Shown here in pieces: positions 8,264-21,783 of a stretch of DNA of 24,085 nt. Each line of letters opens with the position of its first letter. Position 1 is the first letter of the stretch. The DNA comes from a virus. Location of the stretch: positions 1 to 24,085 of IMG/VR virus record IMGVR_UViG_3300000549_000017. One strand, 5' to 3'. A program made the position numbers and the translations under genes. Below the pieces are notes generated by a model. The model saw nothing but the letters and a program-made list of their open reading frames with translations, searched no databases and was not told the origin of the DNA.

Positions 8264-8710
8264 CTAAACTTTAGAAGGGTCAAAACCTGCATATACTTTG
8301 GTTAGACTGACGCCGACATTTACATTCGGCTTGTCATCCGTCAGCTTTTGAATCTTGGCGAGAATCTCTAAAGCTTTCACTTTGTCTTTGAGCATTAAAA
8401 TGCATTCTTTTTCGTTCCCGTCATTGTCGTAGATAATTGAAACGTGGTCGCGCCAATCGGAATAGGCGACATCTTTCAGTTCATGTAAGGTCTGAAATTC
8501 GTTTACGCCGTTCGCCGCGGTCAGCTCGCGCATATACGTGAGAATCTCAGGTTTTCTAAGGTTTTCAAATGCAATTTGTGAACAGGTTTTTTCTGAATAT
8601 CCTGCCAGCCGTGCCGCTTCCGAGCCGTTGAATTTTGCATCAGATAGGTAATGTTCACAAAAAGATTTCTGTTTTCCGGTGAGTTTAATTTCTTCTTTTT
8701 CTTCGCTCAT
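8264..8710 (-). CDS. terS: Terminase small subunit
   Basis: A 148-residue protein whose N-terminal half matches the Terminase_2 family pattern: LTGKQKSFCEHYLSDAKFNG followed by SEAARLAGYSEKT, the DNA-recognition helix-turn-helix. The C-terminal part is helical (LKDKVKALEILAKIQKL), suited to ring assembly. It recognises the packaging site and recruits the large subunit encoded next. The ATG at 8710 overlaps the stop of the PAS gene by one base (TAATG), so the genes are translationally coupled. Confidence 0.88.
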   Translation of the reverse strand: MSEEKEEIKLTGKQKSFCEHYLSDAKFNGSEAARLAGYSEKTCSQIAFENLRKPEILTYMRELTAANGVNEFQTLHELKDVAYSDWRDHVSIIYDNDGNEKECILMLKDKVKALEILAKIQKLTDDKPNVNVGVSLTKVYAGFDPSKV

Positions 8711-9333
8711 TAAATTTTCACCATCCGCCCGATAAATTTATAGACCGTCCCGTCGGTGTTGAAGACGACGAACAACGTCTTTTCGACCTGTATCTCTTCG
8801 GTCGTTCTCTGATTAATGACACGGCATTTGATAGGTCTCAGAGTGCTCCCGGCGAGAGTCATCATCTCGTCGCGTCTTCTAACCATTTCTTGATCATCCG
8901 GATGAATACAGTTCTGCCAACCGTCGCCGACAGCTTCGCTGAGCCGCATTCCCGCCATTTCGAGCCAGGCATCGTTAAAAAATGTGCGCTTGCCCATCGA
9001 GTCCGCTTCCCAGTATCCGATATGCGAATTGTTGAGAAATTCCCTAAGAACGATTTCAACCTGCTGGAGAAGCCTTCGCGTATTCTCAAGTAGATTCTTT
9101 TCAGCCATCTGCGCCGTCAGCATGTCGCGCCATTTCAAGCGAACCTCTTCGAGCTCGCGGATGAGATTGATAATGGTGTCGGCTTCCGTTTTCTGCGTGT
9201 CGGCTTCGGTTTTATGAACGTCGGATTTAGCCTTATAAAAAAGAATCGCCGCCGTAATCCAGCCGCTCGCCGCTCCGATGAAAGCGATACCGAGTGTGAC
9301 AAGTTGAATCCAATTTTGTTTTAGCCATTCCAT
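8710..9333 (-). CDS. Membrane-anchored PAS-domain protein
   Basis: A 207-residue protein with three parts. Residues about 10-33 form a hydrophobic transmembrane helix (LVTLGIAFIGAASGWITAAI). Residues about 34-95 form a charged coiled coil with a doubled KTEADTQKTEADT motif. Residues about 97-207 match a PAS fold, with GYWEADSMGKRTFFNDAWLE, then GWQNCIHPDDQEMVRRRDEM, and a final strand VYKFIGRMVKI. PAS domains sense small molecules, redox or protein partners. No kinase, cyclase or other output domain follows, so signalling would need a partner. It is the first gene of the terminase operon behind leader copy B. A PAS protein at this place is unusual, and a holin-like use of the single helix is possible but unsupported. 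Confidence 0.75.
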   Translation of the reverse strand: MEWLKQNWIQLVTLGIAFIGAASGWITAAILFYKAKSDVHKTEADTQKTEADTIINLIRELEEVRLKWRDMLTAQMAEKNLLENTRRLLQQVEIVLREFLNNSHIGYWEADSMGKRTFFNDAWLEMAGMRLSEAVGDGWQNCIHPDDQEMVRRRDEMMTLAGSTLRPIKCRVINQRTTEEIQVEKTLFVVFNTDGTVYKFIGRMVKI

Positions 9334-9660: not shown

Positions 9661-10179
9661 ATGGAAAAGAAAGATAAAAATTCAACAGCCAATCAGTTAA
9701 CTCAAAATCTTGATGCTCTTGTCGAACTTTATTGTGCTTTATTAGCAAAATCTAACCAAGAAGGCGATGGAATATGGAGTAGATTTAATGCAATGGTAAG
9801 CATAAATTTTGGTTTATTTGCCGCATTTGTTTTTGTCTTTCAAACAGATAAACCACAATTAGAACTATATCGCCCCTTATTTCTTATATTAATTTGCGGT
9901 ATTGGCATAGTTACCAGTATTTGGTCTTTCTATGTCTTGTTAAGACTATGGGGATGGCAACAATACTGGAGAAATCAACTAACGAAAGTTGAACAGGGAT
10001 TTCCTAAATCTTCTGAATGGGCAAGATCATTTTCCCCGAAAGGCGAAGAGGCTAGATTATTGCTTAATGATCCAGGGGTTAATCGCTCGCTTTGGTTTGG
10101 ATATACGCAACCATTTATTGCAATATTCGTCATTGCTTGGATTGTTCTGTTAGTCATTACCTTTTCTTCTGGTTTCTAA
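9661..10179 (+). CDS. Membrane protein of unknown function (172 aa)
   Basis: A 172-residue protein with about three membrane helices: FGLFAAFVFVF region near residues 49-62, LFLILICGIGIVTSIWSFYV near 73-92, and FIAIFVIAWIVLLVITF near 150-168. The soluble loop between the second and third is basic and Trp-rich (WGWQQYWRNQLTKVEQGF). It starts the only plus-strand pair inside the phage block, 17 bases before the epimerase gene. The start ATG has no ribosome binding site. A TTGACA lies 29-34 bases upstream, so a very short or absent leader is possible. I do not recognise the family. With its neighbour it may alter the host envelope. Confidence 0.65.
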   Translation: MEKKDKNSTANQLTQNLDALVELYCALLAKSNQEGDGIWSRFNAMVSINFGLFAAFVFVFQTDKPQLELYRPLFLILICGIGIVTSIWSFYVLLRLWGWQQYWRNQLTKVEQGFPKSSEWARSFSPKGEEARLLLNDPGVNRSLWFGYTQPFIAIFVIAWIVLLVITFSSGF

Positions 10180-10196
10180 AAATATCGGTATAACTT

Positions 10197-11180
10197 ATGG
10201 CAGAAGTTTGTTTGGTGACTGGTGGAGCTGGAAGTATTGGTTCCCATGTGGTTAGAAAGCTTTGCGACGGTAACAATGAAGTTGTTATTCTTGATAATCT
10301 TTCCGCATATCCTTTTGACTATTATCGAGAATTTGGGCTACAAAATCTTCCGGTTGAGTTAGTCCAAGGTGATTTGCGTGATAAAGCTCTACTATTAAAA
10401 TTGGTACCGAATGTTGACAGAATAATACATTTAGCGGCACTTGCAGATGTTGCTGAATGTACACGAAATCCTAAGATAGAGTTTGATATAAATGTTTTGG
10501 GAACTCAAAATCTCTTAGATGCTGCCGTAAATTCAAATATCAAGAAGTTTACCTTTATATCTTCTGCGAGCGTCTATGGCTCGCTAAGCGGACCTATTGA
10601 ACAGCGAAAATTCAATGAGAGCCAAGGTTGCTTTCCCGTTTCAAACTATGGACTGTCAAAGTTATGGGGTGAGCAACGGTGCCTACTCTACCACAAGTTT
10701 TACGGACTACCTGCTACAGCTTTAAGACTATTCAGCATTTATGGTTCTCGCCAGGTTCCGAAATTCGGCAGTCACAGTTGGTGTGTTGCAATCTTTGCAA
10801 TGCAGTTAAGATTACAGAAACCGATAACAATTTATGGGGATGGTGAACAAATTAGAGATTTTGTTCATATTAGCGATGTGGCTGACGCTATTGTTTGCGC
10901 AACCATGAGCAAGAATAGTACCGGTAAAATTTTCAATGTTGGGACTGGACTACCCACTTCAATAAACAGAATTTGCGACCTAATTTGTTTTCTAACGAAT
11001 TCGATTAGAAAAGTAGACCATTTACCATCGCGTGGAGACGATCCTTTAGGAGCATACGCCGATATAAATCAATGTAAAACAATACTAGGCTGGCAACATA
11101 AAACTGCACTCCAAGATGGAATACAAGAATATTTAACTTGGTTAGATAGCAACGAACATTTGATACCAGACTTTATATAA
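10197..11180 (+). CDS. NAD-dependent sugar-nucleotide epimerase/dehydratase (extended SDR)
   Basis: A full-length 327-residue extended short-chain dehydrogenase. The NAD-binding glycine motif is at the N-terminus (LVTGGAGSIGSH), with the ribose-binding acidic residue in VVILDNLSAYP. Other marks are HLAALADV, SSASVYG and the catalytic Tyr-Lys pair in NYGLSKLWGE. A substrate-side segment has IYGDGEQIRDFVHISDVADA followed by FNVGTG. These are typical of UDP-glucose/GlcNAc 4-epimerases and related enzymes that make precursors for surface polysaccharide. The exact substrate cannot be read from the sequence. As a metabolic gene on the opposite strand to the phage genes, it looks like a lysogenic-conversion gene that alters the host surface. 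Confidence 0.85.
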   Translation: MAEVCLVTGGAGSIGSHVVRKLCDGNNEVVILDNLSAYPFDYYREFGLQNLPVELVQGDLRDKALLLKLVPNVDRIIHLAALADVAECTRNPKIEFDINVLGTQNLLDAAVNSNIKKFTFISSASVYGSLSGPIEQRKFNESQGCFPVSNYGLSKLWGEQRCLLYHKFYGLPATALRLFSIYGSRQVPKFGSHSWCVAIFAMQLRLQKPITIYGDGEQIRDFVHISDVADAIVCATMSKNSTGKIFNVGTGLPTSINRICDLICFLTNSIRKVDHLPSRGDDPLGAYADINQCKTILGWQHKTALQDGIQEYLTWLDSNEHLIPDFI

Positions 11181-11420: not shown

Positions 11421-12545
11421 TCAAGCTATATATTCGACGATTGCCCTAACGTTTTCCGGCTTTAACGCTTCTTCTTCAGAGTCCATAATTGCTGCTCGTT
11501 CATCCAATAGTTCGTTGAATAAATCTAATAGATTTTCATCAGATAGAATTTTGTCCACTTTCTCGTTATAAGCATCTGCATATTCATTCCATTTCTGCGC
11601 CTTGAGTTCTCCATTGATTAAATAATCTGCCAAATCATAGCCGTTTTTCTTTTCCTCGCCGGTTGCCGCGTCCTCGATAATTCTGGAAGTGGTAACATTA
11701 AGCCCCATCCTTTGCGCGTCGATGGCTTCCCGGTTCCATAAATCGAATCCGTCGGCATCGGGAAAAAGAACGATTTTCCTGCCTCTGAACCGGCGCAGCT
11801 TTTCCGCCTTCAAATATGATTTCCCTCCGATTGCGAGCCAGACGAAGCTGTCGATAAACATCGAAGCGACCGCGGCGGTTTTCTCGGCTTCGACGACGGC
11901 GACGGGTTTCGATTTGTTCTTTTTAAAAAGATGCTCGCCGAAAAAGCAGATTTGGTGTTGAAACGTATCGGGCAGCACTTTCGCCCGTTTCAGCTCGTAA
12001 TGAATCCAGGAGGGATTTACCCGCTTATCGCGCTTCCCCGTTTTTTCATCGTAGGAGATAATCTTTCCGGTCCGGGCGCGTCCTTTGGCGTCAATCTGCC
12101 AGAAGACGGTTTTGCCCGTTCTGGTCGTTCCTATCAGGTAATCCTTAATCATCTTTCCGACTAGCTCCGAATCGATGAAAGACAAGAGGAAATTCAGGAA
12201 ACGGTTTTTGTCCGTGTGCTCTAGCGAGCGGACGACCAGCGAATTGTCAATTGTGTCGAAGTATTCGGCTCGCCCGTATTTGCTTACGGTATTTATGCTG
12301 CTCGCGGTCGTTACGTTCATTTTGTTTTTAGCGGCGACGTGTGCGCCGGCGGGGGCGCGCAGACCGAGAAACTCCTTCGGCGTCAGGTGATAGCCGCAGG
12401 ACGATTCGCGGTTGCAGCGCCCGACCGACGAGTCAAGATAATCTCCGATTTCGTCAATGTATCTGGCAAACTCGTTTTTCCTTCCGCATCGGGGGCAAGT
12501 GTAGCGGGAGCGGGAGCCTCTGTATTTTTCAAGCCGGTATTTCAT
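11421..12545 (-). CDS. Toprim-fold primase-like protein
   Basis: A roughly 374-residue protein (starting from the ATG at 12545; the frame also opens at a TTG one codon earlier). An N-terminal four-cysteine zinc motif, CPRCG with later GRCNRESSCGYH, resembles the zinc-binding head of primases. The C-terminal part contains a Toprim-like core: VAVVEAEKTAAV supplies the conserved glutamate, and RKIVLFPDADGFDLW supplies the DxD pair. The pattern resembles Toprim-like proteins (DUF6371 type) found in mobile elements. It probably primes or assists phage replication beside the helicase gene, with the iteron-like array between them. Primase activity itself is inferred. Confidence 0.7.
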   Translation of the reverse strand: MKYRLEKYRGSRSRYTCPRCGRKNEFARYIDEIGDYLDSSVGRCNRESSCGYHLTPKEFLGLRAPAGAHVAAKNKMNVTTASSINTVSKYGRAEYFDTIDNSLVVRSLEHTDKNRFLNFLLSFIDSELVGKMIKDYLIGTTRTGKTVFWQIDAKGRARTGKIISYDEKTGKRDKRVNPSWIHYELKRAKVLPDTFQHQICFFGEHLFKKNKSKPVAVVEAEKTAAVASMFIDSFVWLAIGGKSYLKAEKLRRFRGRKIVLFPDADGFDLWNREAIDAQRMGLNVTTSRIIEDAATGEEKKNGYDLADYLINGELKAQKWNEYADAYNEKVDKILSDENLLDLFNELLDERAAIMDSEEEALKPENVRAIVEYIA

Positions 12546-12595
12546 CAATTAATTTCTTTTTTTATCAGTAAAAACCTATGACGCGATTCGGAAGT

Positions 12596-12977
12596 GTCAT
12601 CTTCAGTCTGTGTAGTTTGTTAAACCCTTTAATATCAATCGTTTTACTGAAGATGTCGGGTAGTGTCATCTTCAGTCTTAACGACATCTTCAAAACGTCA
12701 TCTTCAGTAAAGAAATATCTGAAAATTTATAGACCTCTACCTACCCTTATCTTCCCCGTTTTTGAAAATTTCTCTTTCAAAACGGCTCGGACAAAGGCAG
12801 TTTTTGATGACGGGTTTCCAAAGAACTGAAGTTGACGCGCCTGAACTTGACGCTTCAAATGCGCTGAAGATGACACTCGCGGCATCTTCAAGCAACCTTC
12901 TGAAATAAAAGAGCTTACGGGATAAATTGTGCTGAAGATGACGTTTGCAAACGAGAGTCGCGCGCCGTCATCTTCAA
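12596..12977. repeat. Iteron-like array of an 11-mer, both orientations (likely origin)
   Basis: The 11-mer GTCATCTTCAG or its reverse CTGAAGATGAC occurs at 12596, 12647(-), 12665, 12683, 12697, 12826(-), 12841(-), 12864(-), 12881, 12932(-) and 12967. Five copies are exact, three have one mismatch and three have two. The left cluster is mainly plus and the right cluster mainly minus. An AT-rich centre carries an 8-bp inverted repeat (12760-12767 and 12775-12782). The array fills the 430-base gap between the primase-like and helicase genes, which suits a replication origin or operator set. Confidence 0.75.
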
Positions 12978-12978
12978 A

Positions 12979-14088
12979 TCAATTCTCGGCTTCCGAATGA
13001 TTGTCCGCCTCGGCTTCGAGAAGCTCAATCGGGAGCTTCCATTTCCATTTGACGTCGCCGCCGAAATAGCCGCCGGTCTTAAAGACGATGACGCCCAGCT
13101 TTTGCCGCGCGGTTCTTAAAGAGCGCTCGGTAATGCCCAAATCGTGAGCCTCCTTCTGCACCTCTTTGGCGCATCGCTCGCCTTCTTTTAATGCTTCGCG
13201 CAGGAACTTCATCGCCTCACGCCACCCCGCCTGATTGTCCTGGTTTTCCGGCTTGAACGCCGTGAGAATTTGCGTCGCGGTCAAATCGGACGTTCCGAGC
13301 CAGAACAAGCCTTCGTGCGTTATCTCGTAGCCCAGGGACTCGCCCTTCATCGCGTAATTGCATTTGTCGTGAATAAACGCTCCCTTCGTTCTGCTCTGCG
13401 GGTCACGCCCGATGATGACTTCGGAGCGGGCGATGGCGCGAAGGTCGATGCTGCCGAGTCCTGCGGCTCTGCCTTCGCCGCCGCCCTTCGCCTTTCCGAT
13501 GTGCCTGACCAGGATAAAAGAAGCGTTATACTGGACGGCGATTTCCGTCAGGCGCGTGGTGATCGGACGGATGGCGGTCGATAAATTGATATTCGTGTCT
13601 TTGGGAACGTAGGAAAAGAAAGGGTCGATAAAAACGAGCGTCGGCTTGATTTTCTCCATCAAATTCTCGAATCTGAGAAGCCCCATGTCGTCGAAGGTTA
13701 TCGGCTCGGTGACGGTCGCGATATTTTCGTGTTTCGCGCCGACCTGCGTCAGTCTCGGCTTGAGCGTGTCCTCTGCGTCGTCTTCCTCGGCGAGAAACAG
13801 CACTTTTCCCTCTTTGACATATTCGTCGGAGTTGGGGAATTTCCAGCCGTTCGAGACGACCGCTCCGAGGGCGGAGGTGATGTAGGATTTCCCGATGCCT
13901 TCCTCGCCCGTAAAAAGAGTAATCTTTTTTCGCGGGATATACGGAAACCAGAGCCATTCGACGGATTTCGCCTCGACGTCGCTCAGCCACGCGAACTTTA
14001 CCCCGCCGTCCCCGTTTTCCGTGAGACGCTCCGCTTCCGCCTTAATTTCTTCGATATTGATTGCGCTCTTACCGTCGCCAGCTCCCAT
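12979..14088 (-). CDS. RecA-like hexameric replicative helicase (AAA_25/RepA type)
   Basis: A 369-residue ATPase of the AAA_25 / plasmid RepA helicase type. Walker A is FTGEEGIGKSY (about 59-69), VLFLAEEDD follows, and Walker B is LVFIDPF (about 151-157). The conserved histidine segment is LVRHIGKAKGGGEGRAAGLG (about 193-212), then a DLRAIARSEVIIGRD strand. The C-terminal 70 residues look like a winged helix (ITERSLRTARQKLG). It should unwind DNA at the phage origin. Its stop codon abuts the last 11-mer of the repeat array. The ATG has GGGGAG upstream. Confidence 0.82.
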   Translation of the reverse strand: MGAGDGKSAINIEEIKAEAERLTENGDGGVKFAWLSDVEAKSVEWLWFPYIPRKKITLFTGEEGIGKSYITSALGAVVSNGWKFPNSDEYVKEGKVLFLAEEDDAEDTLKPRLTQVGAKHENIATVTEPITFDDMGLLRFENLMEKIKPTLVFIDPFFSYVPKDTNINLSTAIRPITTRLTEIAVQYNASFILVRHIGKAKGGGEGRAAGLGSIDLRAIARSEVIIGRDPQSRTKGAFIHDKCNYAMKGESLGYEITHEGLFWLGTSDLTATQILTAFKPENQDNQAGWREAMKFLREALKEGERCAKEVQKEAHDLGITERSLRTARQKLGVIVFKTGGYFGGDVKWKWKLPIELLEAEADNHSEAEN

Positions 14089-14553: not shown

Positions 14554-15057
14554 TCAGTTAGAAAAATTTAAATAAGCAAATTCGCCAAACAGTTCTTTTG
14601 CTTTTAAGTCATAAACACGCGCGGCATCTTCAGCATTTCGGTAATAACCAAGATGTATTCTTTTGCCTTTGTGCGTAATTTGAGCATGGTATTTTTGAGC
14701 TTGCTTATTCCAACAAACCCCTTTGTAACCACTCTTGTTATTTACCTGTTTGCTTCTATTTCGCAGATTCTCCGCTTTAGTAGATAAGCGAAGGTTTTTA
14801 CGCGTATTGTTCAAAGGATTGCGGTCTATGTGGTCAATACACAAACTTTCAGGAGTATTCATAATAAACTTGTGCATAGACTCAACCGTCCGCTTTCCTT
14901 TATGAACAACATTCCGTTTCGCAACGAATTTTCCGCCACCTGAGTAAGTTTTATCCTTACTGGCAAACCATTTATAAACCAAAACTCTTTCGGCGTCCGC
15001 CTCATCAATGATTGCAGTTTGCCCTTGTGTTAATGGAACTTCGATAATTTTGCTCAT
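14554..15057 (-). CDS. HNH homing-type endonuclease with AP2 DNA-binding domain
   Basis: A 167-residue protein counted from the ATG at 15057 (the frame also opens with a TTG at 15069). An N-terminal domain contains WFASKDKTYSGGGKFVAKRN. The HNH nuclease core is MHKFIMNT, then CIDHIDRNPLNNTRKNLRLS (H62, D75-H76, N88). The C-terminus is a clear AP2 domain: SGYKGVCWNKQAQKYHAQIT, then HLGYYRNAEDAARVYD and FAYLNF. This is the usual layout of free-standing phage HNH-AP2 homing endonucleases. It is AT-rich against GC-rich neighbours, and it lies between a truncated and a complete copy of the same coiled-coil/HTH gene. That is strong evidence for insertion by homing. Confidence 0.9.
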   Translation of the reverse strand: MSKIIEVPLTQGQTAIIDEADAERVLVYKWFASKDKTYSGGGKFVAKRNVVHKGKRTVESMHKFIMNTPESLCIDHIDRNPLNNTRKNLRLSTKAENLRNRSKQVNNKSGYKGVCWNKQAQKYHAQITHKGKRIHLGYYRNAEDAARVYDLKAKELFGEFAYLNFSN

Positions 15058-15065
15058 AATTTTAT

Positions 15066-15218
15066 TCAAGCGACGTAATCCTTGCCGACCGTCGCCGTCG
15101 CGGGAAGCCGTTCGAATTCATTGGCAATGTCTGCCGCCGATTTTTCGGACTTCAAACGCTCGACCGTTTTTTCGAGGTCGTCGAGCCGCTTCCAGACTTT
15201 TTCTTCAAATTCACTCAT
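15066..15218 (-). pseudogene. Truncated 5' half of the coiled-coil/HTH gene, cut by the HNH insertion
   Basis: A 50-codon frame from the ATG at 15218 to a TGA at 15066. The product starts MSEFEEKVWKRLDDLEKTVE and ends LPATATVGKDYVA. It aligns along its length with residues 1-54 of the 14164-14541 protein, sharing roughly 28 residues including RLKSEK and KDYVA, and stops exactly where the HTH should begin. Codons are GC-rich like the older phage genes. It overlaps the stop of the preceding gene by 8 bases, so it may still be translated. I read it as the original 5' end of the gene, displaced by the endonuclease. It could alternatively be an independent small paralogue. Confidence 0.65.
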
Positions 15219-18653: not shown

Positions 18654-18902
18654 CTAAAATGCAACATTAGTAGTGAAAAAAAATTTTGCCGCAATTTGGG
18701 TAGGATGGATTAATTCTGAAACCGAAATACCATAAAAAGCTGAAAGTGACTGTAAAAGTTTCCAAGATGCTGCTGAACCCTGTTCAGCACGAATTATTGT
18801 AAATCTCGATACACCAACACTTTCCGCTACATTTTCTTGAGTTAGTTTTTTTGACTCTCTAAGTTTCACAAGTCTTGTATTGTCGTAATCTTCTTTCGTC
18901 AT
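18654..18902 (-). CDS. XRE-family HTH regulator (82 aa)
   Basis: An 82-residue protein that is almost entirely one XRE helix-turn-helix: RLVKLRESKKLTQENVAESV, then SRFTIIRAEQG and LLQSLSAFYGISVSELI. It is Cro/CI-sized, with no protease domain. A near-consensus promoter (TTGACA, 17 bases, TATATT at 18937-18909) places the predicted first mRNA base at or next to the ATG, so its message may be leaderless, as lambda cI is from PRM. It runs divergently from the 208-residue XRE gene and its stop overlaps the early promoter -35. Likely one of two repressors controlling lysogeny. Confidence 0.8.
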   Translation of the reverse strand: MTKEDYDNTRLVKLRESKKLTQENVAESVGVSRFTIIRAEQGSAASWKLLQSLSAFYGISVSELIHPTQIAAKFFFTTNVAF

Positions 18903-18908
18903 AATTCA

Positions 18909-18937
18909 AATATAATAGGAGAGAATAAGTATGTCAA
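18909..18937 (-). promoter_or_regulatory. Strong promoter for the 82-residue XRE gene
   Basis: On the minus strand TTGACA (18937-18932), 17 bases, TATATT (18914-18909): full -35 match and 5 of 6 at -10. The sequence from the -35 outwards (TGTCAATTAAAATGCAACAT at 18932-18951, plus strand) repeats with two changes at 18648-18667, beside the early promoter. The -10 lies only 6 bases before the ATG, implying a leaderless or nearly leaderless mRNA. Confidence 0.7.
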
Positions 18938-19557
18938 TTAAAATGCAACATCAAGTTGCTTGTAATGTCACCGCGAAGTCTGTTACATTTTTTGCCACAT
19001 TGAGTAATAAAAATACACAATTAAAAGCGCTTGGAAGTTGGATAAAACAACATCGTGAAAAGGCGAATCTGTCCCAAGAAACCGCAGCGGAAAAAGCGAA
19101 CTTAAGCCGTTTTCAATGGATGCGAATTGAAAATGGTCAAAGTGGCACGAAGAGAGAAACTTTAATTCAAATAGCTAAAGTCATTAATGCCGATGTAAAT
19201 CAGACTTTAAGAAAGGGCGGATTTATTGATTCATCGCTTGAGTCTGAATCAAATGTTGAGCATCAACTTCTTGAGTGGTTATCAGAGATAGATTTCTCTA
19301 TTTTTGATGAAACGGAAATAAAAGAAATTGTAGATTTCATCATATTTAAGGCACACCAAAAGGAGTATTCCCTCTACAAGAAAGATTTGATTAACATAGA
19401 TAATGAAGTTCCATACAGCAAAGCCAGTACCAAATCAACTGTAGCTAAAAGAGGTGCTATTAATTCAAAAACTGAAGCTGATGATATAGAAAGCGACGAA
19501 CAATCTGAAGAAGATGTAGTTGAGTTTCGTTTAGGCGGCATTATGTTAGGAGATTAG
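18931..19557 (+). CDS. XRE-family HTH regulator with long C-terminal region (208 aa)
   Basis: A 208-residue protein with an HTH near residues 31-88: LKALGSWIKQHREKANLSQE, KANLSRFQWMRIENG, TLIQIAKVINADVN. The C-terminal 100 residues are acidic and helical, with no LexA/S24 peptidase motif, so cleavage-based induction is not indicated. The ATG is preceded by TAGGAGAG. The N-terminal 30 residues extend before the HTH and their codons carry the second operator copy (18981-19000) and the half-site at 18944-18951. The gene's own coding DNA therefore bears regulatory sites. It is divergent from the 82-residue XRE gene, the usual layout of a lysogeny switch. Confidence 0.8.
   Translation: MSIKMQHQVACNVTAKSVTFFATLSNKNTQLKALGSWIKQHREKANLSQETAAEKANLSRFQWMRIENGQSGTKRETLIQIAKVINADVNQTLRKGGFIDSSLESESNVEHQLLEWLSEIDFSIFDETEIKEIVDFIIFKAHQKEYSLYKKDLINIDNEVPYSKASTKSTVAKRGAINSKTEADDIESDEQSEEDVVEFRLGGIMLGD
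18981..19000. promoter_or_regulatory. Operator copy OR inside the XRE coding region
   Basis: TGTTACATTTTTTGCCACAT matches 19 of 20 bases of the operator at 18627-18646. It lies at codons 17-24 of the 208-residue regulator. A TGCAACAT half-site at 18944-18951 sits next to the divergent -35. Confidence 0.6.
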
Positions 19558-20355: not shown

Positions 20356-21783
20356 ATGAAAATAAGTAACCTTTTCCAACTTAACAAATCACAAGCCGAA
20401 CTTGACTTCGTTGATATTGATACAGACAGAGATATTGCTTTGTTTGTTGACCCTTTCTTTCTTGGGCTAAGAAAAGATAACTGGTCAATTGAAGCTACTC
20501 GAACAATTAAGAGTTTTTTTCAAACGCTTATTGATTTAATAAGAAATGAGCAGAATGATGAAGCAAGGCTTTTGTTTCGTCATCTAAGAGAACCTAATTC
20601 AACCTGTTTCGGTTTATCAAGGGATATACCTAGAGGAAGAGGGGTTGGAAGAGAAGATGCAGATAGAATTTTCGATAGTATTATTCAAAGTCGTGCTATA
20701 CAAACGGGCTTGATTCAAGACCTTGAAGATAAGCATCTTTTTGTTGACAATTTTGGAAAAGACAAACTCTCCGACATGACCACTAATATTATCAGGAAAC
20801 ACCTTATAGACTACACAATAGCCCAATGCAGACTTCACCAAATACCGATTACTCCAGATGTTCCGTCGGATTTTTATTGGAATCGAAGAACAAGACAGTG
20901 GGAAGCTGAACCAACTTCAATTCTTTTGATAGGAGCAAAGAAAATTCTTCTTGTACCTAAAGGCATTGTTTCTTTTAACGCCGACTATACTCCTCAACAG
21001 TATTACCAGCACTTCGTTTTGAATTTTTTGCAGAATGAGCACTTACAGATGAATTCGGCACTTGTGCAACGAAGGAAGGATGGAACAAGATTTGTAACTA
21101 AAAAAGATATTGAAGAAGAAAATCCTTATTCAAAGGAATTTTTAAGAGAGTTTACACAGCGAAATCCTCACGTCTTAGAAGAGTTTAAGAGAATCACAAA
21201 AACCCAATCGCTTTCAGATTTTGAAATATCTGATGTAGATATTCATGCTGTTGCCAATCGTTTAGTTGAAAGTCTAAATAACATACCTTTAGGAAACAAC
21301 GGTGCTACAAGGTACCATCGTTTAATTGTAGGGATTCTTGAGCTACTTTTCTACCCTCACTTAATTTATCCAGAGCTTGAAAGAGAAATTCACGAAGGTA
21401 GAAAAAGAATTGATGTTACATTCGACAATGCTGCAAAGTTGGGAATATTTAGCAGACTGTCGGAAAATATGCAGCTTCCAAGCCAGTATATTTTTGTTGA
21501 ATGCAAGAATTACAGTGATGACCCAGTTAATCCTGAAATAGACCAACTAGCTGGGAGATTTTCAGTCAACCGAGGTAAAGTAGGCTTTTTACTCTGTAGG
21601 CAAATAGACGATATGGATTTATTTATTAATCGTTGTCGTGATACTTACAGGGATGATAGAGGCTTAATAATTCCTCTAACTGACAACGATATTGTTCAGT
21701 TATTGCAAAATATTGATAACCGAAATAATGCCTTTTTAGATACATTTTTATCCGAAAGAATAAGAACAATAGCAATTAATTGA
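20356..21783 (+). CDS. PD-(D/E)XK-like nuclease, probable defence effector
   Basis: A 475-residue protein whose C-terminal 150 residues fit a restriction-endonuclease fold: a conserved acidic residue near E329 (ILELLFYP), then D353 in GRKRIDVTFDN, then E382-K384 in YIFVECKNYSDD, and Q397 in EIDQLAG. That order and spacing match PD-(D/E)XK active sites. The N-terminal 300 residues (LDFVDIDTDRDIALFVDPFF, REPNSTCFGLSRDIPRG) have no motif I know and may sense the target. The gene is AT-rich, starts without a clear ribosome binding site, and is followed by a relic of a neighbouring gene's 3' end. A DNA-cutting role against invading phage is inferred. Confidence 0.75.
   Translation: MKISNLFQLNKSQAELDFVDIDTDRDIALFVDPFFLGLRKDNWSIEATRTIKSFFQTLIDLIRNEQNDEARLLFRHLREPNSTCFGLSRDIPRGRGVGREDADRIFDSIIQSRAIQTGLIQDLEDKHLFVDNFGKDKLSDMTTNIIRKHLIDYTIAQCRLHQIPITPDVPSDFYWNRRTRQWEAEPTSILLIGAKKILLVPKGIVSFNADYTPQQYYQHFVLNFLQNEHLQMNSALVQRRKDGTRFVTKKDIEEENPYSKEFLREFTQRNPHVLEEFKRITKTQSLSDFEISDVDIHAVANRLVESLNNIPLGNNGATRYHRLIVGILELLFYPHLIYPELEREIHEGRKRIDVTFDNAAKLGIFSRLSENMQLPSQYIFVECKNYSDDPVNPEIDQLAGRFSVNRGKVGFLLCRQIDDMDLFINRCRDTYRDDRGLIIPLTDNDIVQLLQNIDNRNNAFLDTFLSERIRTIAIN

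Follow-up and report, generated by a model that had tools for sequence, protein, structure and literature searches.

A near-symmetric iteron array beside a RepA-fold helicase gene as the proposed replication origin of a phage

The window analysed here was the whole IMG/VR virus record IMGVR_UViG_3300000549_000017 (24,085 bases), which is probably a fragment of a phage genome. A gap of 430 bases between the genes of a helicase (14088-12979) and a DUF6371 protein (12548-11421), both on the minus strand, carries an array of short repeats. We propose that this array is the replication origin of the phage and that the adjacent helicase is its own initiator, which would bind CTGAAGATGAC via its C-terminal winged helix; we assign this reading a probability of about 0.68. 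The initial annotation, made from the letters, had taken the repeats for the sites of an initiator or repressor and their place for that of an origin. This reading of their function gained support, since the motif was scarce elsewhere in the record, the array was conserved, and iterons recurred beside members of the helicase family. The array was also nearly symmetric, and in related cassettes the word changed when the helicase changed. The features concerned were as follows.

11421..12548, minus strand: Zn-ribbon and DUF6371 protein, presumed primase, downstream of the array (Pfam DUF6371 6.3e-50, Zn_ribbon_16 1.9e-23)
12596..12977, no strand assigned: array of 11 CTGAAGATGAC iterons, the proposed replication origin (motif count, gap shuffles, layout)
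12596..12707, no strand assigned: left half of the array, sites 12596+, 12647-, 12665+, 12683+ and 12697+ (start-to-start distances 51, 18, 18 and 14)
12719..12753, no strand assigned: core of 35 invariant bases located between the left and right halves, possible site of unwinding or priming (35/35 identical in the relative)
12756..12785, no strand assigned: dyad CCGTTTTTGAAA / TTTCAAAACGG, located on the symmetry axis of the array (read by eye)
12826..12942, no strand assigned: right half, which mirrors the left one, with sites at 12826-, 12841-, 12864-, 12881+ and 12932- (start-to-start distances 15, 23, 17 and 51)
12967..12977, plus strand: eleventh, outer site adjoining the helicase stop codon (motif match; the helicase-sense AAGATGAC octamer begins 5 bases past the stop)
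12979..14088, minus strand: RepA-fold AAA_25 helicase, proposed initiator helicase (Pfam AAA_25, E 3.8e-23)
13036..13239, minus strand: helicase residues 284-351, predicted winged helix at the C-terminus that would bind the array (structure models)

The count of 11 copies of GTCATCTTCAG/CTGAAGATGAC within 382 bases, five of them exact, was reproduced at up to two mismatches, with sites starting at 12596+, 12647-, 12665+, 12683+, 12697+, 12826-, 12841-, 12864-, 12881+, 12932- and 12967+. The bases TGAA, TG and the last C were invariant across all 11 sites. Against a shuffled background, proposed earlier as a check, the excess was clear: 1000 dinucleotide shuffles of the 430-base gap gave at most three matches at up to two mismatches vs. 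11 observed. The whole record held 20 such matches vs. 4.6 by chance (maximum of 11 in 100 shuffles), and 11 of the 20 fell in region 12596-12977. Equal frequency of the motif elsewhere, which the initial annotation had named as evidence against its reading, was not found; the matches were concentrated in the array, and no exact copy of the 11-mer lay outside it in the 24,085 bases. Copies with at most one mismatch numbered eight inside the array and one outside (at 14623). The array reached the helicase stop codon, as had been described: it ended at 12977, one base from the stop codon at 12979-12981. Of the AT-rich centre reported at the same time, only a modest version stood, with 72% AT at 12690-12739 vs. 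46–74% in the other scanned 50-base windows; the most AT-rich windows reached 72–74% and did not stand out. An Rfam search gave no match. As is characteristic of iteron-type origins, several copies of a short word were thus clustered in noncoding DNA (the open frame that overlaps them showed no coding constraint), and they were placed beside replication genes both in this record and in one independent relative.

The opposed orientation of the two clusters was borne out, with four of five sites on the plus strand in the left cluster and four of six on the minus strand in the right one; the order from left to right was + - + + + | - - - + -, followed by the outer +. A feature absent from the initial annotation was a near mirror symmetry about 12769, in which five sites faced the other five, their positions deviating by 10 bases in total. 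This spacing symmetry was equalled by 2.0% of 20,000 random layouts, in a test made after the pattern had been seen. Orientations were mirrored in all five site pairs, a 1 in 32 event that was likewise tested post hoc. The inverted repeat noted earlier was present at 12756-12767 / 12775-12785 with a one-base bulge, as read from the sequence, and the relative retained this dyad with one arm mismatch. Adjoining the dyad was the 35-base core, which had also escaped the initial annotation; a 17-base piece of it was found in only two IMG/VR records, both representing the known relative.

Both flanking genes were found together in two IMG/VR records, at 94% and 81% protein identity. These records were identical over 8,149 bases and were therefore counted as one independent relative. 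Conservation of the array in relatives with the same replication genes, on which the earlier reading had been made to depend, was seen in this one relative: sites were identical at 112/121 positions (92.6%) and spacers at 198/271 (73.1%), with P 4e-6 for sites vs. spacers. The core positions used in the conservation script were identical at 36/38 (94.7%), and site 12826 was degraded in the relative. Cumulative GC skew, suggested at the outset as a marker, failed to point to the array: its minimum in the record lay near 18-19 kb, about 5-6 kb off the array and at a change of gene direction, and that of the 39.7 kb relative lay near 27-28 kb, not at the array. This relative (L007 / G002, 39,731 bases) carried a terminase 85% identical to that of our record but gave no match to the major head protein of our record, which may reflect mosaicism or a gap in the record; the query with the major head protein matched neither record searched and is uninformative on its own. 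A search of viral contigs for two close copies of the 11-mer returned 18 stretches. Two of them were the known relative, and the remaining 16 were set aside as probable acidic coding repeats, the start-to-start distances of the paired copies being multiples of three.

AAA_25 was the sole match in the Pfam scan of the helicase. Its AlphaFold2 model, built from 60 sequences, had a mean pLDDT of 87, and the best structural match of the ATPase domain was RSF1010 RepA (1g8y; Z 22.0, rmsd 3.1, 212 aligned); a sequence search of the PDB with the helicase found nothing at 0.01. Residues 284-351 formed a helix-helix-helix-strand-strand arrangement in both the full-length model and the model of the isolated domain (55 sequences, mean pLDDT 79). 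Matches of the isolated domain to winged-helix proteins scored modestly, the best at Z 8.2 (rmsd 2.8, 68 aligned). The protein thus reads, on the models, as a helicase followed by a winged helix, and the predicted winged helix would be the part that binds DNA.

Arrays beside more distant helicases were sought in loci from an alignment search with the helicase (80 from IMG/VR and 80 from genomes, the latter chiefly Clostridia). A strict search (at least six copies of a 10-mer with one mismatch in 450 bases) of L028-L037 and further loci was passed only by this record and the known relative (L036, L037 and L007). This result first looked like an absence of arrays across the helicase family, an interpretation dropped after a looser scan of 158 loci (L038-L195) revealed short arrays of other words adjoining the helicase gene. 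The close relative apart, none of the distant loci scanned had an array as large as that of this record. Directly 3′ of the helicase, a 10-mer family with at least four copies and both orientations occurred in 12 of 155 windows of 350 bases vs. 15 of 1,782 control windows. The common word beside the distant helicases was AAGRNNGC. At least three copies of the 10-mer AAGRNNGCMA lay no more than 1 kb from the helicase in 49 of 112 dereplicated loci; the rest of the locus DNA (4.8 kb on average) reached that number in 11. In the noncoding DNA of the genome loci, 72 octamers were present in 7.1 kb located 0–250 bases 3′ of the stop (10.08 per kb) vs. 38 in 35.2 kb located more than 1 kb away (1.08 per kb; P 9e-30). 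The corresponding values for the viral loci were 16 in 2.3 kb (6.82 per kb) vs. 30 in 32.1 kb (0.94 per kb; P 3e-8). Control patterns were not significant in either group.

Since the octamer pattern had been chosen from the earlier locus scans, 22 loci served as a held-out test. They came from 196 genomes of one order, in which 22 of 30 new loci were used, none near an earlier helicase or near one another. The octamer occurred 35 times in 5.5 kb 3′ of the stop (6.32 per kb) vs. 41 times in 36.1 kb elsewhere (1.14 per kb), with P 4e-12 for 3′ vs. inside plus elsewhere, and 11 of the 22 loci had at least two copies; control patterns showed no enrichment. A further set of seven loci, three fecal phage records and four plasmids, had 12 octamers in 1.75 kb vs. 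27 in 21.8 kb. Within it, L030 and L281 were without an octamer in the 250 bases, and the frame of L280 was broken, so that its 'stop' falls inside the gene. At some loci, the array was located 0.5–0.85 kb upstream of the helicase instead, near an Xre-type gene, and 61 of the 111 dereplicated loci tested had no cluster of three octamers in 250 bases near the helicase. In one locus (L120:988-1187), the AAGGCTGC array was itself duplicated, forming two three-site blocks 153 bases apart with equal spacing.

In helicase sense, the word of our record contains AAGATGAC, which fits AAGRNNGC at seven of eight positions; by hand estimate, a match this close would arise from the motif alone with a probability of roughly 7%. 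The copy nearest to the helicase begins 5 bases past the stop, where relatives often have their first octamer. The record's own form, AAGRNNAC, was not enriched beside the distant helicases, so that the kinship of the words rests on the seven matching positions and on place. The comparison of sequences is suggestive of such kinship, and the likeness of the place of the array to that in relatives is firmer.

The DUF6371 protein, which had a weak PHROG match (DNA primase/helicase, E 0.0015), was taken as the probable primase, and an alignment search with it gave 80 loci. In L200, a primase 62% identical to ours was accompanied by an AAA_25 helicase with an HTH_24-like or sigma-70-region-4-like tail. 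This helicase had no significant BLAST similarity to that of our record, and the gap of 256 bases contained 10 copies of GTTCAA. No match to the terminase of our record was found in the L200 record, which may be a fragment; judging from these sequences, L200 appears to be another phage sharing the cassette. Other words occupied the same gap in further loci.

TGTAACA: L201 and L203; helicase of L201 AAA_25 with another HTH tail
GTACGCA: L213; helicase AAA_25 with another HTH tail
TGGGACA: L033, L205 and near copies; helicase of L033 AAA_25 with another HTH tail
CTGCAA: L034
AACTGCA: L035; helicase DUF3987

The helicases of L032 and L206 were, like that of L035, of the DUF3987 type. Helicases with like tails had a common word (L201 and L203; L031, L033, L204 and L205), and unlike tails went with unlike words. 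Thirteen gaps were selected by hand from 26 of 83 primase loci, a choice that favors arrays, with some bounds taking in the end of the upstream gene; in these, a 7-mer was repeated beyond shuffles (k=7) at P 0.023 or better in 11 of 13 and at P 0.003, the smallest value that 300 shuffles allow, in 8 of 13. No 7-mer was repeated beyond shuffles in the gaps of L202 and L209. Left out of the selection were L031 and L204, as near copies of L205, and L207, L210-L212, L214-L219 and L234, which had no visible iteron-like gap or helicase-like neighbor. An automatic scan without hand selection flagged 10 of at most 83 primase loci, one of which (L228) looks plain AT-rich. The more distant primase relatives in the search list had no array. 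Iteron arrays therefore recur both beside the AAA_25 helicase family and beside DUF6371 primases. The TGGGACA repeats of L031 (1416-1757), L204 and L205 are found not only in the gap but also in the final part of the helicase coding sequence, and these iterons are thus partly translated.

Three candidate binders had been named in the initial annotation, namely the helicase, a Com-like zinc protein and a winged-helix protein. In 50 loci with at least three octamers in 250 bases, the helicase was the sole gene family found in 50/50, which points to it as the binder. Other families in these loci were serine-recombinase-like ORFs (35), Xre-type HTH (34), MobV-like (13) and tyrosine-integrase-like (11); apart from that of the helicase, cluster names were assigned by eye, with some of them confirmed. 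Covariation of the motif with the winged helix across the 50 loci was weak (Mantel r 0.096, P 0.018; r 0.086, P 0.063 given the ATPase domain) and is not counted here in favor of the helicase. Among the three candidates, the helicase is the best supported as the protein that would bind the array.

In the mechanism we propose, the C-terminal winged helix of the helicase would bind the CTGAAGATGAC sites. A pair of helicase rings with opposite directions would be loaded around the dyad and the invariant core by the two mirrored halves of five sites each, an arrangement that the mirror layout would suit. The dyad and core would then be the place of melting and of first priming by the adjacent DUF6371 primase.

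An operator, at which a phage repressor or activator would regulate how the primase gene and those downstream of it are transcribed, is an unlikely alternative reading of the array. A regulator could act at such a place between co-directional genes, the record has two Xre-type HTH genes (18654-18902 and 18931-19557) as well as unnamed genes upstream of the helicase, and in some of the 34 of 50 array-bearing distant loci with an Xre-type gene, that gene is beside the array. However, the Xre-type genes of our record are about 5.7–6.6 kb from the array and no cognate repressor gene was found beside the sites, although a more distant regulator may act there; in 16 of the 50 loci, no Xre gene appeared in the stretch covered, some stretches being cut. 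A scan of 12450-13100 that covers sigma-70-like promoters only found none of that type. In our judgement, an array of 11 sites over 382 bases, nearly mirrored and with an invariant core, goes beyond what is usual for an operator, and the word changes with the helicase. The small plus-strand gene that the repeats might encode at 12578-12829 is hardly credible. The region has an open frame of 83 codons, with a similar open frame in the relative, but the 34 substitutions over 70 codons numbered 9 at first, 13 at second and 12 at third codon positions, a spread that gives no sign of protein constraint; moreover, there is a one-base indel near the end of the frame, which also leaves out most of the array's right half.

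Recombinase-like genes near the array in 35 of the 50 distant loci, MobV-like relaxases in 13 and an array between the helicase and a Mob_Pre relaxase in L118 would fit integrase or excisionase sites of the arm or accessory type or, for the distant elements, a part of an origin of transfer. This is improbable: neither family occurred throughout the array-bearing loci, as the helicase did; no recombinase or relaxase was found among the proteins of our record that were scanned; and primase cassettes have the array directly before the primase. Multiple short sites in both orientations would also suit a partition or centromere-like site as in phages living as plasmids, which we consider very improbable, as no ParA or ParB family member was found among the scanned proteins of the record and the place of the array tracks helicase genes across elements. 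In the loci compared, none of these three rivals (operator, partition site, recombination or transfer site) follows the array as closely as the helicase does.

The proposed origin may be compared with several known systems. RSF1010 RepA is the closest solved fold of the helicase (1g8y), and the likeness is one of fold only. On RSF1010, a separate initiator, RepC, acts on the iterons, whereas the helicase studied here has its own predicted winged helix; no RepC-like gene was recognised among the scanned proteins of this record, itself probably a fragment. The proposed reading, if true, would suggest that origin binding and initiation can be done by a RepA-fold helicase itself, a role that RSF1010 RepA is not known to have. 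In satellite phage P4, the alpha replication protein binds short iterons (ori/crr) through a winged helix at its C-terminus, but it is a fused primase-helicase of another helicase family. According to one study of initiator helicases from staphylococcal islands, SaPI Rep and Cch2 of SCCmec bind iterons downstream of their own gene via a C-terminal domain, Cch and SaPIbov1 Rep contain DUF927, and Cch2 is of another family (PMC7581432). Our system resembles these in a helicase with a C-terminal dsDNA-binding domain (here, the predicted winged helix of residues 284-351), in a primase function nearby (here, the presumed DUF6371 primase) and in iterons in the gap directly downstream of the helicase's own gene. 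It differs in that the helicase is a RecA-type, RepA-fold AAA_25 protein belonging to neither the DUF927 nor the Cch2 family, and in that Cch2 has three 5-nt AAGTG iterons vs. 11 longer, near-mirror sites here (PMC7581432). Owing to its different helicase type, it would be a parallel to the SaPI Rep and SCCmec Cch2 origins and not a member of that group.

The distant helicases with AAGRNNGC arrays were mostly found in Clostridia contigs with recombinases or relaxases and in this resemble integrative mobilizable elements (IMEs). According to a 2017 review, no study had yet addressed how excised IMEs replicate, and RepA/RepC are named there as no more than candidate factors (PMC5704250). The AAGRNNGC arrays make replication of excised mobilizable elements directly testable. 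A wider proposition, to which we give even odds, is that modular compact replicons are widespread in phages and mobile elements. Each would consist of a self-initiating AAA_25 or DUF3987 helicase, an exchangeable C-terminal HTH or winged helix and matched iterons adjoining the gene, one branch would have a DUF6371 primase opposite, a swap of helicase would be a swap of word, and AAGRNNGC would mark the predicted origin of the integrative elements of Clostridia. If true, the helicase, its DNA-binding tail and its iterons would be exchanged as a matched set, and a rule for finding origins in phages and in integrative elements of gut bacteria would follow: origins would be sought immediately 3′ of the stop codon of a helicase with a DNA-binding domain at its C-terminus. 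No description of such an arrangement was found in the open-licence literature on DUF6371, on COG3598/AAA_25 with iterons or on RepA helicases with iterons.

Several other genes of the record deserve mention. Two genes upstream of the helicase, the minus strand encodes a protein with HNH_3 and AP2 domains (14554-15069), likely a homing endonuclease. A PAS-domain protein (8710-9333, minus strand) is encoded just upstream of the terminase small subunit, and L007 has a like-sized gene at the same place. Among the minus-strand phage genes, two plus-strand genes at 9661-11180 encode an 8xMP-like membrane protein and a GalE-like NAD-dependent epimerase; their low GC suggests a recent insert. At the right, AT-rich, plus-strand end of the record, a protein of 475 residues (20356-21783, plus strand) matches the PADLOC candidate defence family PDC-M36A (E 3.6e-41).
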